From NCBI RefSeq assembly GCF_000246855.1, contig NC_016609.1:8568744-8632743 (forward strand): 64,000 nt of DNA, given 5' to 3'. Below, in pieces: positions 9,539 to 14,871 of this stretch. The DNA comes from Niastella koreensis GR20-10 (lineage in GTDB: Bacteria; Bacteroidota; Bacteroidia; Chitinophagales; Chitinophagaceae). A model generated the notes under the pieces. That model saw only the letters and a list, made by a program, of their open reading frames with translations. It was not told the DNA's origin and ran no database searches. Numbering within the stretch: position 1 is the first letter of the stretch; the number at the start of each line of letters is the position of its first letter. The position numbers were made by a program, and so were the translations under genes.

Positions 9539-10192
9539 CTAATTAAACTCATTAATACTCCTCGACAACTTACTCCTGATCCTGCTAAGCGTCTCCAGCG
9601 TCATGCCCAGGTAAGAAGCAATGAATTTAAGGGGAACCCGGTTCAGCAGTTCGCTTTTGGTGGCAATAAAATGTTTGTATTTGGAGGTGGCTTCCATCAG
9701 GCGGGCAATAAAGGCCCGTTCTTCTGCATCGCGATAATACCGCTCCAGAATTTTTCTGCCCACAATATTCGCTTCGGGGAAATTATCATACAGGTATTGC
9801 AAATCATCAAAGCTCAGGGTCGATAATTCGCAATCTTCCAGCGCCTGAATATTTTCGCGTGCAGGTTGCTGTAAGCCAAAGCTGGTAATACAGGTGGCCA
9901 GTTCCTGTTCGCCCGAGATCCAGGTAGTGATCTCTTTTTTCTCTTCTTTTATATAACTGCGAAGAATGCCTTTACGAATGAGGTAAACGTTTTTACAAAC
10001 GGTGCCGGCGGCAATCAGGACCTCACCTTTATTCAACTGGCTGGGAAAGGCTTTTTGATTGATAAAGGCCTGGGCCTCGTTACTCACCGGGTGTACGTTC
10101 TTTACAAATACTGTGAAGGGAGATTCGGGAATTACAGTTTTGGTTAACCATTGTTCCACTCCTTGCGTCGGGTTGACTGTTGTTATCGGCAT
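9539..10192 (-). CDS. Crp/Fnr-family transcriptional regulator
   Basis: This 217-residue protein has an N-terminal cyclic-nucleotide-binding-like beta barrel (about 25-140, with KGEVLIAAGTVCKNVYLIRKG) and a C-terminal helix-turn-helix region ending LKFIASYLGMTLETLSRIRSKL. The barrel lacks an obvious cAMP-binding phosphate cassette, as is common for Bacteroidota members, so the ligand is unknown. I chose the ATG at 10192; the frame extends 30 codons further without homology. It is divergent from the CarH-like gene, and the shared 237-bp region contains repeated ATTTAAAC-type motifs that could bind the neighbour's product. Confidence 0.88.
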   Translation of the reverse strand: MPITTVNPTQGVEQWLTKTVIPESPFTVFVKNVHPVSNEAQAFINQKAFPSQLNKGEVLIAAGTVCKNVYLIRKGILRSYIKEEKKEITTWISGEQELATCITSFGLQQPARENIQALEDCELSTLSFDDLQYLYDNFPEANIVGRKILERYYRDAEERAFIARLMEATSKYKHFIATKSELLNRVPLKFIASYLGMTLETLSRIRSKLSRSINEFN

Positions 10193-10301
10193 CACGTAAG
10201 GTTTTTGGTTCCAGAAATTGAGTACGATTAAAACCTTTATTGCTTCAAAGGAAAGGCGCAGGTAATAGTAAATGGTCGCCACTAAAGGTATAAAGAAAAT
10301 T

Positions 10302-10353
10302 TTGTTAAACGGGATTTTAAACGGTGAAGTTTGTGTAAGATTTATTTAAACAA
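10302..10353. promoter_or_regulatory. Extra CarH-operator-like half sites in the divergent region
   Basis: TTGTTAAAC at 10302-10310, ATTTTAAAC at 10314-10322 and a perfect ATTTAAACAA at 10344-10353 match or resemble the arms of the inverted repeat at 10398-10429. They lie nearer the Crp/Fnr gene, so the regulator may also act on it. This is inference from motif similarity only. Confidence 0.4.
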
Positions 10354-10397
10354 ACCGGCGGCAACGGCTCAGATAAAAATAATTTGGCAATTATTGC

Positions 10398-10429
10398 TTG
10401 TTTAAATAAATTGTAAAAAATTTAAACAA
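10398..10429. promoter_or_regulatory. Inverted-repeat operator before the CarH-like gene
   Basis: TTGTTTAAAT (10398-10407) and ATTTAAACAA (10420-10429) are perfect 10-bp inverted arms with a 12-bp centre. An almost identical element with the same 21-bp arm spacing lies before crtI. Placement just before both starts fits repression by the MerR-type regulator in the dark with autoregulation. Confidence 0.7.
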
Positions 10430-11326
10430 CTGGGACCTTTTACTATTTCGCAGTTACAACAATTTTCGGGCATAAAAGCACATACCATCCGTATTTGGGA
10501 ACAACGGTACAATGCGTTACAGCCGGCCCGCAGTGAGGGTAATACCCGGTATTACAGCAGTGACCAGTTAAGACGCCTGTTGAACATCGTAAGCCTGATG
10601 AACACAGATAATAAGGTTTCTGAATTGTGCGCCCTCCCGGATGAAAAGCTGAACCGCCTGGTGGAAAAGCAGGCTGTGCAGCTGCAGCAGCCGGTAGTGC
10701 CCGAATTCGAGTTCTATATTTTGCAAATGGTGGCCGCAGCCCTTGAATACAACGAGCTGCGTTTTGACAAGGTATTTTCCAATGCGGTGTTGCGCTTTGG
10801 GTGGAAGGAGGTGTATGTGAACATTGTTTATCCTTCTCTTAACAGGTTGAGCCTGATGTGGTCAACCAGTGTGCTAGCTCCCGCGCAGGAACATTTCATA
10901 ACCGGCTTGTACCGGCAAAAATTATTCGTGGCCATCGATGCCCAGCCCATTCCGGTGTCTGCTTCGGCAAAAGATACCTGGCTGTTATTTCTGCCCGAAG
11001 ATGAACGGCATGAACTGGGTTTGTTGCTGGCCAGCTACCTGTTAAGACAGGCTGGAAAAAAAGTGGTCTGTCTTGGTGCTGACGTACCATATGATTCTGT
11101 GGTGGCTGCCGTAAAGGCGGTAAAACCCGGCAATCTTTTATTCTTCCTGGTACATAAAGACGATCCGGAAAACGATCAGGAGCTGGTATCCCGTATCTGC
11201 CAGCAATTTAATACCCTACACATTTATATGGCCTGCGATGTAGCGCGCTTAACTGAGCTCAAAAAGCCAAGGAATTGTAACCTGGTGCATACAGTGCAGG
11301 ACCTGGTATCGGTTTTAGAAGTGTAA
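10430..11326 (+). CDS. CarH/LitR-type MerR regulator with B12-binding domain
   Basis: This is probably an adenosylcobalamin-dependent light-sensing repressor of carotenoid genes. Residues 4-70 form a MerR helix-turn-helix domain, with KAHTIRIWEQRYNALQPAR and then the NTRYYSSDQLRRLL segment. A four-helix cap carries the W-x9-EH motif (W144, E154, H155), and the cobalamin domain carries E-x-H-x-x-G (E192, H194, G197). These three features define CarH-type photoreceptors. No ATG precedes the DNA-binding domain: the frame is open from a stop at 10403, and CTG at 10430 gives the typical N-terminus MGPFTISQLQ. The next start, a TTG at 10580, would delete the DNA-binding domain. The start codon is therefore the uncertain point. 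The gene lies directly upstream of crtI. Confidence 0.85.
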   Translation: MGPFTISQLQQFSGIKAHTIRIWEQRYNALQPARSEGNTRYYSSDQLRRLLNIVSLMNTDNKVSELCALPDEKLNRLVEKQAVQLQQPVVPEFEFYILQMVAAALEYNELRFDKVFSNAVLRFGWKEVYVNIVYPSLNRLSLMWSTSVLAPAQEHFITGLYRQKLFVAIDAQPIPVSASAKDTWLLFLPEDERHELGLLLASYLLRQAGKKVVCLGADVPYDSVVAAVKAVKPGNLLFFLVHKDDPENDQELVSRICQQFNTLHIYMACDVARLTELKKPRNCNLVHTVQDLVSVLEV

Positions 11327-11356
11327 TGTTTAAATAAAATTGTAAATATATAAACA
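11327..11356. promoter_or_regulatory. Inverted-repeat operator before crtI
   Basis: TGTTTAAAT (11327-11335) and ATATAAACA (11348-11356) repeat the element before the regulator gene, with one mismatch in the second arm and the same 21-bp spacing. It begins right after the regulator's stop and ends 7 bp before the crtI ATG. Confidence 0.7.
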
Positions 11357-11363
11357 GGTTGGA

Positions 11364-12845
11364 ATGGCGAAACTGGGAGTCATAGGTGCCGGCTTTGCAG
11401 GGCTCAGTGCTGCCTGTTATTTGTCGGCAGCGGGGCACGAAGTGCATGTGTTTGAAAAAAATACCCAATTAGGTGGCAGGGCTGGTCAGCTGCATACACA
11501 GAATGGATTTGTGTTTGACAAAGGCCCAAGCTGGTATTGGATGCCGGAAGTATTTGAACGGTTCTTTAACGATTTTGGTTACCAGGTGAAAGACCTGTAC
11601 CAGTTAGATCTGCTGAACCCTTCGTTCGAAATGATATTTGGCAAAAGCGACTCACTGGTTGTTCCGGCAACCTATAAAGAATTGCTGGATTTGTTTGAGT
11701 GTATAGAACCCGGAAGTGCAATTCGTTTGGATGAATTTCTGCAGGAAGCAGGGGTAAAGTACCGGCTTGGCATGGAGCAGCTGGTATACAAACCCGCCCT
11801 TTCCATAACAGAATATTTGTCGGCGAAATTGCTCTATAACTGCCTGAAGGCAGACGTTTTCCTACCCTTTAGTAAACACGTGAGAAAATACTTTTCCAAT
11901 CCGCGGTTGATCGCTTTAATGGAATTTCCTGTTTTGTTCCTAGGAGCTAAACCATCCCAAACCCCGGCCTTGTACAGTCTTATGAATTTTGCGGGATTGA
12001 AACTGGGCACCTGGTATCCGCAGGGCGGATTCGGAAAAGTAATTGAAGCCATGCAGCGCATCGCTGAAAAGAACGGGGTTGTTTTTCATTGTAATGCCAA
12101 TGTAGAAAAGATAATTACGGCAAAACAGCATGCAGTAGGATTGCGGGTGAACGGAGAAGCAGTTGTCTGTGATGGCGTAATTGGCGCAGCAGATTATAAT
12201 CATATTGAGGAAACACTTTTGGCGCCCCATGAAAGAAATTATGATGATAAGTACTGGCGCCGGAGAGTAATGGCCCCTTCCTGTTTGATCTTTTATCTGG
12301 GAGTGAGTAAAAAAATAAAACGCCTGCAGCATCATTCCCTATTTTTCGATGCAAGCCTGAACGACCATGCCAACCAAATTTACCAGGACCCCAGCTGGCC
12401 AACCCGGCCCCTGTTCTATGTTTGTTGTCCTTCAAAAACAGATAACAGCGTAGCGCCCGCCGGCCATGAGAACCTCTTCCTGTTAATGCCCATTGCAGCA
12501 GGACTGGATGATACACCTGAAACCCGCGAGAAATATTATTCCATAATGATGTCAAGACTGGAAGGTTTTGCCGGTGAGTCAATTCAGCAACACCTGGTTT
12601 ACAAAGAGAGCTATTGTATAAACAATTTTGTCAGCGAATACAATGCCTTTAAAGGGAATGCCTATGGATTGGCCAATACATTATCGCAAACTGCGGTGCT
12701 AAAACCTTCCATAAAGAACAAACACCTTAAAAACCTTTTTTATTCCGGCCAGCTAACCGTGCCAGGCCCCGGCGTACCCCCTTGCCTGATCTCCGGAAAG
12801 ATAGCCGCAGAATTGCTCAATAATTATTTAACTAAAGGCGTATGA
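11364..12845 (+). CDS. crtI: Phytoene desaturase
   Basis: This FAD-dependent membrane-associated enzyme converts phytoene to lycopene through successive desaturations. The 493-residue protein has the N-terminal dinucleotide fold VIGAGFAGLSAACYL (residues 6-20), an acidic ribose-binding end at VFEKN, and the CrtI C-terminal signature GQLTVPGPGVPPCLISG. Length and motifs are typical. It is the first gene of the crt operon behind its own operator and overlaps crtB by 4 bp, which indicates translational coupling. Confidence 0.95.
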   Translation: MAKLGVIGAGFAGLSAACYLSAAGHEVHVFEKNTQLGGRAGQLHTQNGFVFDKGPSWYWMPEVFERFFNDFGYQVKDLYQLDLLNPSFEMIFGKSDSLVVPATYKELLDLFECIEPGSAIRLDEFLQEAGVKYRLGMEQLVYKPALSITEYLSAKLLYNCLKADVFLPFSKHVRKYFSNPRLIALMEFPVLFLGAKPSQTPALYSLMNFAGLKLGTWYPQGGFGKVIEAMQRIAEKNGVVFHCNANVEKIITAKQHAVGLRVNGEAVVCDGVIGAADYNHIEETLLAPHERNYDDKYWRRRVMAPSCLIFYLGVSKKIKRLQHHSLFFDASLNDHANQIYQDPSWPTRPLFYVCCPSKTDNSVAPAGHENLFLLMPIAAGLDDTPETREKYYSIMMSRLEGFAGESIQQHLVYKESYCINNFVSEYNAFKGNAYGLANTLSQTAVLKPSIKNKHLKNLFYSGQLTVPGPGVPPCLISGKIAAELLNNYLTKGV

Positions 12846-13678
12846 AGAATCTGTTCGACAGAGTATCCATTGAATGCAGTAAGATCACCACAAAAACATA
12901 CAGCACCAGTTTTACCCTGGGCATACTTTTCCTCGACCGGCATTTACGTAATCCCATCTATGCTATATATGGTTTCGTTCGGTTTGCCGACGAGATCGTA
13001 GACAGCTTTCATGGCTATAATAAAAAAGAATTGCTTGCGGCATTCCGCAACGATACCAATATCGCCATTCAGGACAGGATCTCGCTGAACCCGGTTTTAA
13101 ATGCATTTCAGGCAGTGGTAAATGAATATAAGATCGAGAGAAAATGGATCGATATTTTTCTAGACAGCATGGAAATGGACCTGTACTGCCAAACCCATGA
13201 TGAGGAGAGTTATAAGAAATACATCTTAGGCTCCGCAGAAGCCGTGGGGTTAATGTGCCTGCATGTATTTACCAATGGCGATGCTGTTTTATTTGAGCGG
13301 TTAAAGCCTTATGCCATGCGCCTGGGAGCGGCTTTTCAGAAAGTAAATTTCTTACGCGATGCAAAGGCCGACAATGTGATGCTGGGCCGTACTTATTTCC
13401 CCTCGGTTAACCTGGGCAATTTTTCCAGGGCAGAAAAAGAAACGATAGAAGGGGAGATCGAGGCTGATTTCTTTGAAGCATTGAAGGGAATAAAGATGCT
13501 GCCGGTTTCTGCCCGCAAAGGCGTTTACCTGGCCTATTATTACTATTGGGTGTTGTTTAAAAAAATTAAACGGTTACCGGCAGACAGGATCCTGGTGGAA
13601 CGCATTCGTATTCCCAATTTCCAGAAACTGGTGTTGATGGTGGAATCACATTTGAAGTATCAGTTAAACATTATTTAA
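12842..13678 (+). CDS. crtB: Phytoene synthase
   Basis: It condenses two geranylgeranyl diphosphates to phytoene, the first committed carotenoid step. The 278-residue protein has both aspartate-rich Mg-diphosphate motifs: DEIVD at residues 50-54 and DAKAD at 173-177, the latter followed by RTYFP. It starts inside the crtI stop codon region (ATGA-type overlap) and is followed 22 bp later by crtZ. No GGPP synthase gene is in the window, so substrate supply is encoded elsewhere. Confidence 0.95.
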   Translation: MKNLFDRVSIECSKITTKTYSTSFTLGILFLDRHLRNPIYAIYGFVRFADEIVDSFHGYNKKELLAAFRNDTNIAIQDRISLNPVLNAFQAVVNEYKIERKWIDIFLDSMEMDLYCQTHDEESYKKYILGSAEAVGLMCLHVFTNGDAVLFERLKPYAMRLGAAFQKVNFLRDAKADNVMLGRTYFPSVNLGNFSRAEKETIEGEIEADFFEALKGIKMLPVSARKGVYLAYYYYWVLFKKIKRLPADRILVERIRIPNFQKLVLMVESHLKYQLNII

Positions 13679-13700
13679 AGGGGATTATAAATTGAAGCGT

Positions 13701-14165
13701 ATGACGGTTATTTATCATCTGTTGATTGTGCTGGCGGCCTTTGTTGGGATGGAAGGCGTAGCCTGGTTCACCCACAAATATATTATGCACGGCTTGTTCT
13801 GGCGCCTGCATAAAGATCATCACCATAAGGAATCGCAGGGCTTTTTTGAACACAATGATTTTTTCTTTTTGATCTTCGCTCTGCCCGGTATTGCCGGTTT
13901 ATTTTGGGGAATGCAAAACAATTATAACTGGGCTTTCTGGACGGGGCTGGGTATTACCCTGTATGGCCTTGCTTATTTTTTAGTACACGATATTTTTATT
14001 CATCAGCGTTTCCGCCTGTTCAGGAATACCAACAATGCATATTTCAAAGCAATCAGGCGCGCGCATAAAGTGCATCACAAACATCTGAACAAAGAAGAGG
14101 GGGAATGTTTTGGAATGCTCTGGGTACCTTTTAAATATTTTACCATGACCTCACGGGGGAATTAA
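13701..14165 (+). CDS. crtZ: Beta-carotene hydroxylase
   Basis: This integral-membrane non-haem di-iron hydroxylase adds 3-hydroxyl groups to beta-ionone rings, giving zeaxanthin from beta-carotene. The 154-residue protein has the full set of histidine motifs: H25xxxxH30, H37xxH40H41, H96xxxxH101 and H122xxH125H126, set among four hydrophobic segments. A TTG three codons upstream (13692) is a possible start; the ATG at 13701 is preferred. The stop is one base before the lycopene cyclase start, so the genes are tightly coupled. Confidence 0.92.
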   Translation: MTVIYHLLIVLAAFVGMEGVAWFTHKYIMHGLFWRLHKDHHHKESQGFFEHNDFFFLIFALPGIAGLFWGMQNNYNWAFWTGLGITLYGLAYFLVHDIFIHQRFRLFRNTNNAYFKAIRRAHKVHHKHLNKEEGECFGMLWVPFKYFTMTSRGN

Positions 14166-14166
14166 T

Positions 14167-14871
14167 ATGCATGCTACTTACCTGCTCATAAACCTGCTTT
14201 CAGCTATAGTACCATTTCTGTTCTCCTTTTATCCGGCCATCCGGTTCGATAAACAGTTCAGGACATTTTTTATTGGCAACTTTTTAGCGGCTGTTTGTTT
14301 TATAGCCTGGGATGTTATATTTACTTCCCTGAACATCTGGGGATTCAATCACCGGTATACGCTGGGATTTAATTTGTTCAACCTGCCGGGTGAGGAAGTA
14401 TTGTTTTTTATCTGTATCCCATTCGCCTGCGTATTTACCTATCATTGTTTTAATACCTTCTATAACATCACCTGGCCTGTATGGCTGGTTAAAACAATTG
14501 TGGTAGCATTAGCTGTGGTATTGCTTACCATTGGCCTGGTTCAGCATAATAAAGCCTATACAGCAGTATCGTTTATAAGTACAGGAATTTTATTGCTGGC
14601 TTTACTCTTTGTTTTTAAAGTAAAATGGCTGCCGGGTTTTTTAACCATTTATCCTTTGCTGCTGGTGCCCTTTTTTATTGTCAATGGTATTTTAACAGGT
14701 ACCGGGTTACAACAACCTGTGGTGTGGTACAACAATGCCGAAAACACCGGCATCAGGGTGTTGACTATCCCGGTTGAAGATTTTATCTATGCAATGGAAT
14801 TGCTATTGTTAAATCTTTTCTTTTTCGAAAAGCTTAAAAGCATCTCCGTCAAACAATCCCAGGTCGCTTAG
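14167..14871 (+). CDS. Lycopene beta-cyclase, CrtYc/CrtYd fused membrane type
   Basis: This 234-residue protein is a tandem of two lycopene-cyclase-domain repeats, each with about three membrane helices. The first half has WDVIFT and LPGEEVLFF, the second has [20 protein letters not shown]; the Glu in these PxE(E/D) motifs is the conserved acidic residue of the family. It would cyclise lycopene to beta-carotene. Such fused heterodimer-type cyclases are common in Bacteroidota. It is last in the crt operon, and its final 63 bp overlap the 3' end of the convergent adenine deaminase gene. Confidence 0.88.

Follow-up and report, generated by a model that had tools for sequence, protein, structure and literature searches.

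Genes and inverted repeats at the locus

Within the window, by which we mean the whole 64-kb (64,000-nucleotide) stretch of Niastella koreensis GR20-10 DNA analysed here, a gene for a 298-residue CarH-like regulator of the MerR type (10430..11326, + strand) is followed on the same strand by crtI (11364..12845), whose phytoene desaturase product scores above the NCBIfam cut-off for CrtID, the bifunctional phytoene desaturase/3,4-desaturase. Pfam and NCBIfam matches identify the next genes, all on the + strand, as being of the squalene/phytoene synthase type (12842-13678), the fatty-acid hydroxylase type (13692-14165) and the lycopene cyclase type (14167-14871); judged from their spacing, these genes (12842..14871) are likely the rest of a co-transcribed crtI run. 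The regulator reading is opened by a CTG at 10430. The first in-frame ATG, GTG or TTG is found at 10580, inside the helix-turn-helix (HTH), so that either the start codon is non-standard or the HTH is lost. Unusual carH start codons lying directly at the operator recur within the genus, with CTG in the window, apparently TTG in locus L027 and GTG in L028. A CRP/FNR-type gene (9539-10282, − strand) is divergent to carH in the window and also in these two loci, and a Thermus LitR is reportedly paired with a CRP/FNR regulator; a lone half-site near the divergent gene (10341-10357) was discarded because it is not kept in L027 and L028.

The regulator contains a MerR-type DNA-binding domain (PF13411, 49.3 bits; PF00376, 30.4 bits; both above the cut-offs) with K16-A17-H18 as its HTH triplet, and residues 2-237, spanning the DNA-binding and B12 domains, match the solved Thermus CarH (3whp, E 5e-16; 5c8d, E 6e-16). 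The cap and cobalamin motifs that the earlier note had read in the protein are present, W-x9-EH at residues 144-155 (W144, E154, H155) and ExHxxG at 192-197 (H194); all 120 homologues listed have W-x9-EH, and 119 of them have the lower-ligand His motif. At the level of the Pfam B12 domains, the window regulator alone among 36 members lacks a PF02607 match at 0.01, and its PF02310 score of 16.6 bits lies below the cut-off of 32.1, a family that 16 of the 36 members match. Against the NCBIfam CarH equivalog it reaches 80.3 bits with a cut-off of 400; since that cut-off covers close relatives of characterised proteins, we refer to the protein as CarH-like. The predicted structure (mean pLDDT 89.3) consists of a winged helix, a helical bundle and a five-stranded C-terminal alpha/beta domain. 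The genome carries five CarH-like genes and also matches the cob(I)alamin adenosyltransferase family, and a scan of viral contigs with the regulator found no relative.

Candidate operator A (10398..10429, no strand assigned) precedes the regulator gene and, as the earlier note had claimed, has perfect 10-bp arms, TTGTTTAAAT (10398-10407) and ATTTAAACAA (10420-10429), around a 12-bp centre. TGTTTA-N18-TAAACA occupies 10399-10428 of this element, which ends at the putative CTG start. The same TGTTTA-N18-TAAACA forms candidate operator B (11327..11356, no strand assigned), which starts 1 bp past the stop codon of the carH-like gene and leaves 7 bp to the crtI ATG at 11364. For B, described beforehand as the same arrangement, the 21-bp arm offset and the 7 bp to the ATG were borne out, while the arms, TGTTTAAAT (11327-11335) and ATATAAACA (11348-11356), pair with one mismatch in nine. 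A TnnACA half-site is present in both arms of A and of B, and apart from these two the 64-kb window has no perfect TGTnnA-N18/19-TnnACA dyad.

TGTTTA-N18-TAAACA did not occur in 40 dinucleotide shuffles of the window, and in 20000 such shuffles of the two intergenic stretches A arose four times, B never and both together never. The assertion that matched spacing at both promoters is rare by chance holds in this sense, but inverted repeats as such are common: with overlapping ones included, the window has 29 perfect 10-bp repeats with gaps of 0-30 where shuffles average 2.4, and TGTTTA/TAAACA as a bare pair of hexamers at gaps of 15-22 is barely enriched in the genome (18 occurrences against 13 for the reversed control). 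What carries the case is thus the occurrence of matched elements at two promoters, together with their spacing and conservation. A putative carH-like promoter was recognised by pattern match at 10383..10413 (+ strand), with TTTG at 10383-10386, a 20-bp spacer and TAAATTG at 10407-10413. The latter, which lies as a −7-like part inside operator A, is close to TAnnTTTG, the Bacteroidota promoter box consensus in the available part of the source (PMC5682007); upstream of crtI in the window, no promoter match of the TTTG-N20-TAAATTG type was found with the same pattern.

Conservation of the dyads at carotenoid loci

A CarH-like match (E 1e-20) was detected in 122 of 195 genomes of the same family. 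Footprinting covered 24 loci, namely the own carH-crtI and carH-ECF loci and 22 of 29 new ones, comprising 16 carH-crtI and eight carH-ECF loci; L041, L043-L046, L049 and L050, with no crtI or ECF gene directly downstream, were left out. At the carH-crtI loci, a best site of gap 18 with seven or all eight of the fixed bases stands before carH in 13/16 cases and before crtI in 10/16; crtI of L032, L033, L035 and L036 had no good site of its own, which we count against the operator reading. Upstream of the ECF gene, the best site at the eight carH-ECF loci has gap 19 seven times and gap 18 once; the carH genes of these loci have imperfect sites only.

The crtI comparison drew on the best 80 of 593 scan matches, at named Bacteroidota loci, 78 of which were counted after L057 and L073 had been dropped for having less than 300 bp upstream. 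The arms are conserved at homologous loci, so that the refuting outcome named in the earlier note did not arise, and their presence follows the regulator gene. Where a carH-like gene lies on the same strand within 2.6 kb upstream of crtI, a perfect gap-18 or gap-19 dyad is present at 37 of 39 loci, L115 and L124 having imperfect ones. None of the 35 crtI loci with neither carH nor ECF has a perfect dyad upstream, three of these loci (L129, L131, L134) offering less than 1500 bp of upstream DNA. The dyad is perfect at 3/3 loci with an ECF gene only, as viewed over 2.6 kb so that carH may sit elsewhere, and at the single locus with carH elsewhere. Dyad and carH linkage are associated with a Fisher p of 8.5e-19, uncorrected for kinship. 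A crtI tree built for 74 of these loci shows 12 changes in carH linkage and 13 in the dyad. Its supported branches give five independent pairs, of which 4.7 on average agree and none opposes, with a p floor of 0.0625.

Enrichment is confined to gaps 18 and 19: perfect dyads at carH loci number 48 at gap 18, six at gap 19 and seven in total over the other 21 gaps (8-30), and the new loci, not de-duplicated, gave 46, 8 and 10, respectively. Three related loci (G005:C27:17348, L065 and L077) have an extra gap-18 dyad within the carH coding region. Double operators were also observed, at L075, L090, L091, L102, L105, L106, L110, L111, L114 and L121 among other loci: the 44 adjacent pairs in the fetched loci have start-to-start distances of 35-73 bp, with modes at 55-57 and 61-64, a span over which we do not claim constant helical phasing.

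Genome-wide distribution of sites

Throughout the family, TTGTTTAA-N16/17-TTAAACAA yielded 82 sites (table sum) in 65 of 195 genomes, against 6 for the reversed control. At least 49 of the 75 strict sites listed have a listed carH match no more than 1 kb away, in DNA that makes up about 0.05% of the total; 26 are not near any listed carH match, which counts against the operator reading. Fifteen of these 26 were examined: five stand before ECF orthologs (L143, L145, L154, L156, L166), two before crtI (L149, L150) and six without an obviously related gene. The remaining two of the fifteen lie 53 bp before a 6-pyruvoyl-tetrahydropterin-synthase-like gene (L146:299-330) and 33 bp before an SRPBCC-like gene (L147:1501-1532), both genes being named from sequence reading; the dyads at pterin-type and SRPBCC-like genes hint at a wider light regulon.

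In the own genome, a third dyad, with gap 19, at L021:6936-6966 (G000:C1:8314935-8314965) stops 8 bp short of an ECF sigma gene that adjoins a second CarH-like gene and is followed by idi. Other TGTTTA-N15..22-TAAACA matches in this genome were examined at six places, and of these several were rejected: L024 and L026 have a gap of 16, L014 and L016 appear to fall in coding DNA, and for a TGTTTA/TAAACA site 8 bp before a DoxX-like gene (G000:C1:5782643) two same-genus genomes gave 29-40% identical matches only. Two similar folE-type CarH clusters (L022:3500-5149 and 12391-14098), the second folE being degenerate (53 C-terminal residues by tblastn), have the HTH triplets RAP/KAP and keep TGTACA before the divergent genes in both; no gap-18/19 dyad was found near them. 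In another own paralog (L023:6344-7267, − strand), AH replaces EH in W-x9-EH, and this protein is possibly a non-B12 member.

Recognition helix and arm bases

The relation between protein and site was followed in 80 distinct CarH-like HTHs, with residues 16-18 as the triplet and a perfect dyad sought from −200 to +1500; left out were the TGTTTA-fetched L137-L166, the repeats L167, L169-L178 and L187, and other pattern loci. A perfect dyad was found in this range for 67 HTHs and was absent for 13. All 61 HTHs with the triplet [KRQ][APSQ]H are associated with TGTTTA, one of them also with TGTCTA, while SVH, NVH, SAH and QTH go with TGTCTA (4/4) and KVV and TKF with TGTATA (2/2). This helix-arm rule, in which the triplet and the base in both arms vary in step and whose classes were drawn post hoc, fits all 67 regulators with a dyad. 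On a tree of the 67, triplet class and arm change five times each and 5 of 5 independent pairs agree, an agreement that holds with the helix columns removed, although five pairs cannot reach p 0.05.

The rule was written down before new loci were fetched, and these supplied 44 new HTHs as a hold-out. All 23 with a dyad fit it: 22/22 canonical triplets have TGTTTA (two having an additional dyad with a different arm), and NAH, the sole non-canonical triplet, has TGTCTA; for the other 21 HTHs a perfect dyad was absent from the range, which, like the 13 cases above, counts against the operator reading. Two of the new loci showed features that were noticed later and are uncounted: L217 (KPN) has TGTATA-N18-TATACA outside the range, and L219 (NAH) has an imperfect TGTCAA/TAGACA pair together with a TGTCCA-N20-TGGACA pair. 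We favour a code, deduced from these sequences, in which K, R or Q at position 16 together with H18 would read T at arm position 4, S or N at position 16 would read C, and loss of H18 would lead to the reading of A.

Position over putative promoters and proposed mechanism

Individual arms show some variation: 70 of the 87 unique sites form perfect dyads and the other 17 carry a single mismatch. Of the 87, 59 end within 16 bp of a start codon. Among 69 gap-18 sites, 13 have a predicted TAnnTTTG box at −6 relative to the left arm, 11 at +8 and 6 at +4, these being the preferred offsets, and wherever a box can be seen the dyads cover the −7-like box and the start region. This overlap, together with the ends near the start codon, places the dyad where a repressor would sit. 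No conserved central unit was found in 69 and 18 aligned sites.

The dyads are very probably a DNA switch bound by the CarH-like sensor. That A and B are operators of a CarH protein, offered earlier as inference, is supported by the linkage to carH, the match to the CarH half-site and the co-change of helix and arm; the fixed spacing and the position over the promoter start also underlie this putative assignment. We consider it probable, with some room for doubt, that the adjacent CarH-like protein is the one that acts at A and B, repressing in the dark with adenosylcobalamin and releasing in the light. In a CarH oligomer, two of the MerR-type DNA-binding domains would read the two inverted TnnACA half-sites, most likely in darkness and with adenosylcobalamin as ligand, and the bound protein would cover the −7 box and start region and so repress carH and the crtI run; light would break the cobalt-carbon bond, upon which CarH would leave and carotenoids could be made. 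The adenosylcobalamin chromophore, the light release, the oligomer change and the choice of repression over activation are carried over from characterised CarH proteins.

The same dyads could serve this CarH-like protein in response to another signal or partner, with no B12 light sensing. The second half of the B12 domain is divergent in Pfam terms, and the B12-independent CarA and the LOV-partnered class II LitR are described, in the parts of the literature available, as family members that do not sense B12. This we regard as unlikely, given the near-universal W-x9-EH and His motifs among the homologues listed, the complete five-stranded C-terminal alpha/beta domain in the model and the adenosyltransferase family in the same genome. 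Activation, as is common for MerR proteins, would have a precedent in Streptomyces, where activated LitR is said in the accessible text to promote litS transcription in the light, and here too a CarH-like gene adjoins an ECF sigma gene. The classical MerR activator site, however, is a palindrome in the spacer between two promoter boxes, and the dyads overlap predicted TAnnTTTG boxes at fixed offsets and mostly end at the start codon; we therefore hold an activator to be very improbable.

A reading by the CRP/FNR protein or an ECF sigma factor, with CarH a mere neighbour, would accord with the divergent CRP/FNR gene in the window, L027 and L028 and with the dyads at the ECF-only crtI loci. That CRP gene, however, was found in no other of 33 loci searched, carH-crtI loci without an ECF match also bear the dyad, the ECF-only loci were viewed over a limited distance, and the arm bases track the CarH recognition helix, so that we give this reading less credence still. 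The abundance of inverted repeats in the window would suit RNA hairpins, terminators or chance AT-rich repeats, but the conservation with carH linkage, the fixed gap and arms that track a protein helix make these origins close to negligible.

With A and B taken as putative CarH operators, a broader proposal, to which we give even chances, is that Bacteroidota have a CarH branch with a spaced palindrome, two opposed DNA-binding domains and a simple code, in which the 18/19 gap would separate parallel circuits in Chitinophagaceae, gap 18 marking the carH and crtI sites and gap 19 the sigma-gene site. The insulation by gap is not favoured as the code is, because across the phylum 16 sigma-gene sites have gap 18 and 13 have gap 19. 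If the operator assignment is right, B12-type light control of carotenoids would gain a defined, searchable operator in Bacteroidota, a directly testable two-residue recognition code and further genes under the same control, namely ECF sigma genes and perhaps pterin genes.

Comparison with known systems

The comparisons that follow use the parts of the cited sources available to us. The CarH proteins of Thermus thermophilus and Bacillus megaterium resemble the Niastella system in their MerR and B12 domains, W-x9-EH and His motifs, TnnACA half-site, carotenoid genes and, as predicted for the Niastella sites, overlap with promoter elements. Their operators consist of three or four tandem 11-bp direct repeats, nnnnTnnACAn (PMC9304148, PMC8156234), whereas the Niastella operators would have two inverted half-sites separated by 18 or 19 bp. 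The CarA/CarH operators of Myxobacteria share the TnnACA units and vary in design; there, tandem direct and pseudo-repeats lie around the −35 box, unlike the one spaced palindrome over the −7 and start region in Niastella. An inverted arrangement is thus nothing alien to the wider family: the first description of the CarA site gave it as two inverted repeats (PMC9304148), and palindromic sites are general among MerR proteins (PMC8156234).

The Pseudomonas class II LitR proteins (PplR1, PmlR2) are LitR/CarH family repressors with hexamers that fit TGTnnA/TnnACA, one site lying between transcription start and start codon; they differ in that the hexamers are self-palindromic and 12 bp apart (TGTACA-N12-TGTACA; PMC9758184) and in that class II is regarded as lacking B12 binding. 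For a CarH-like gene paired with an ECF gene, the closest parallel is Streptomyces LitR-LitS (PMC12705666), in which a B12 LitR adjoins an ECF sigma gene for carotenoid expression, although that LitR is described as promoting litS in the light. Light-induced carotenoids are described in a Chryseobacterium, the regulator not being known there (PMC7064467), and among the literature titles and abstract beginnings covered, with subscription papers mostly outside that scope, no CarH/LitR operator of such a kind in Bacteroidota was found. Set beside these systems, the new part of the putative Niastella operator is that CarH half-sites form a palindrome spaced by 18/19 bp, the centre of which has no conserved unit.
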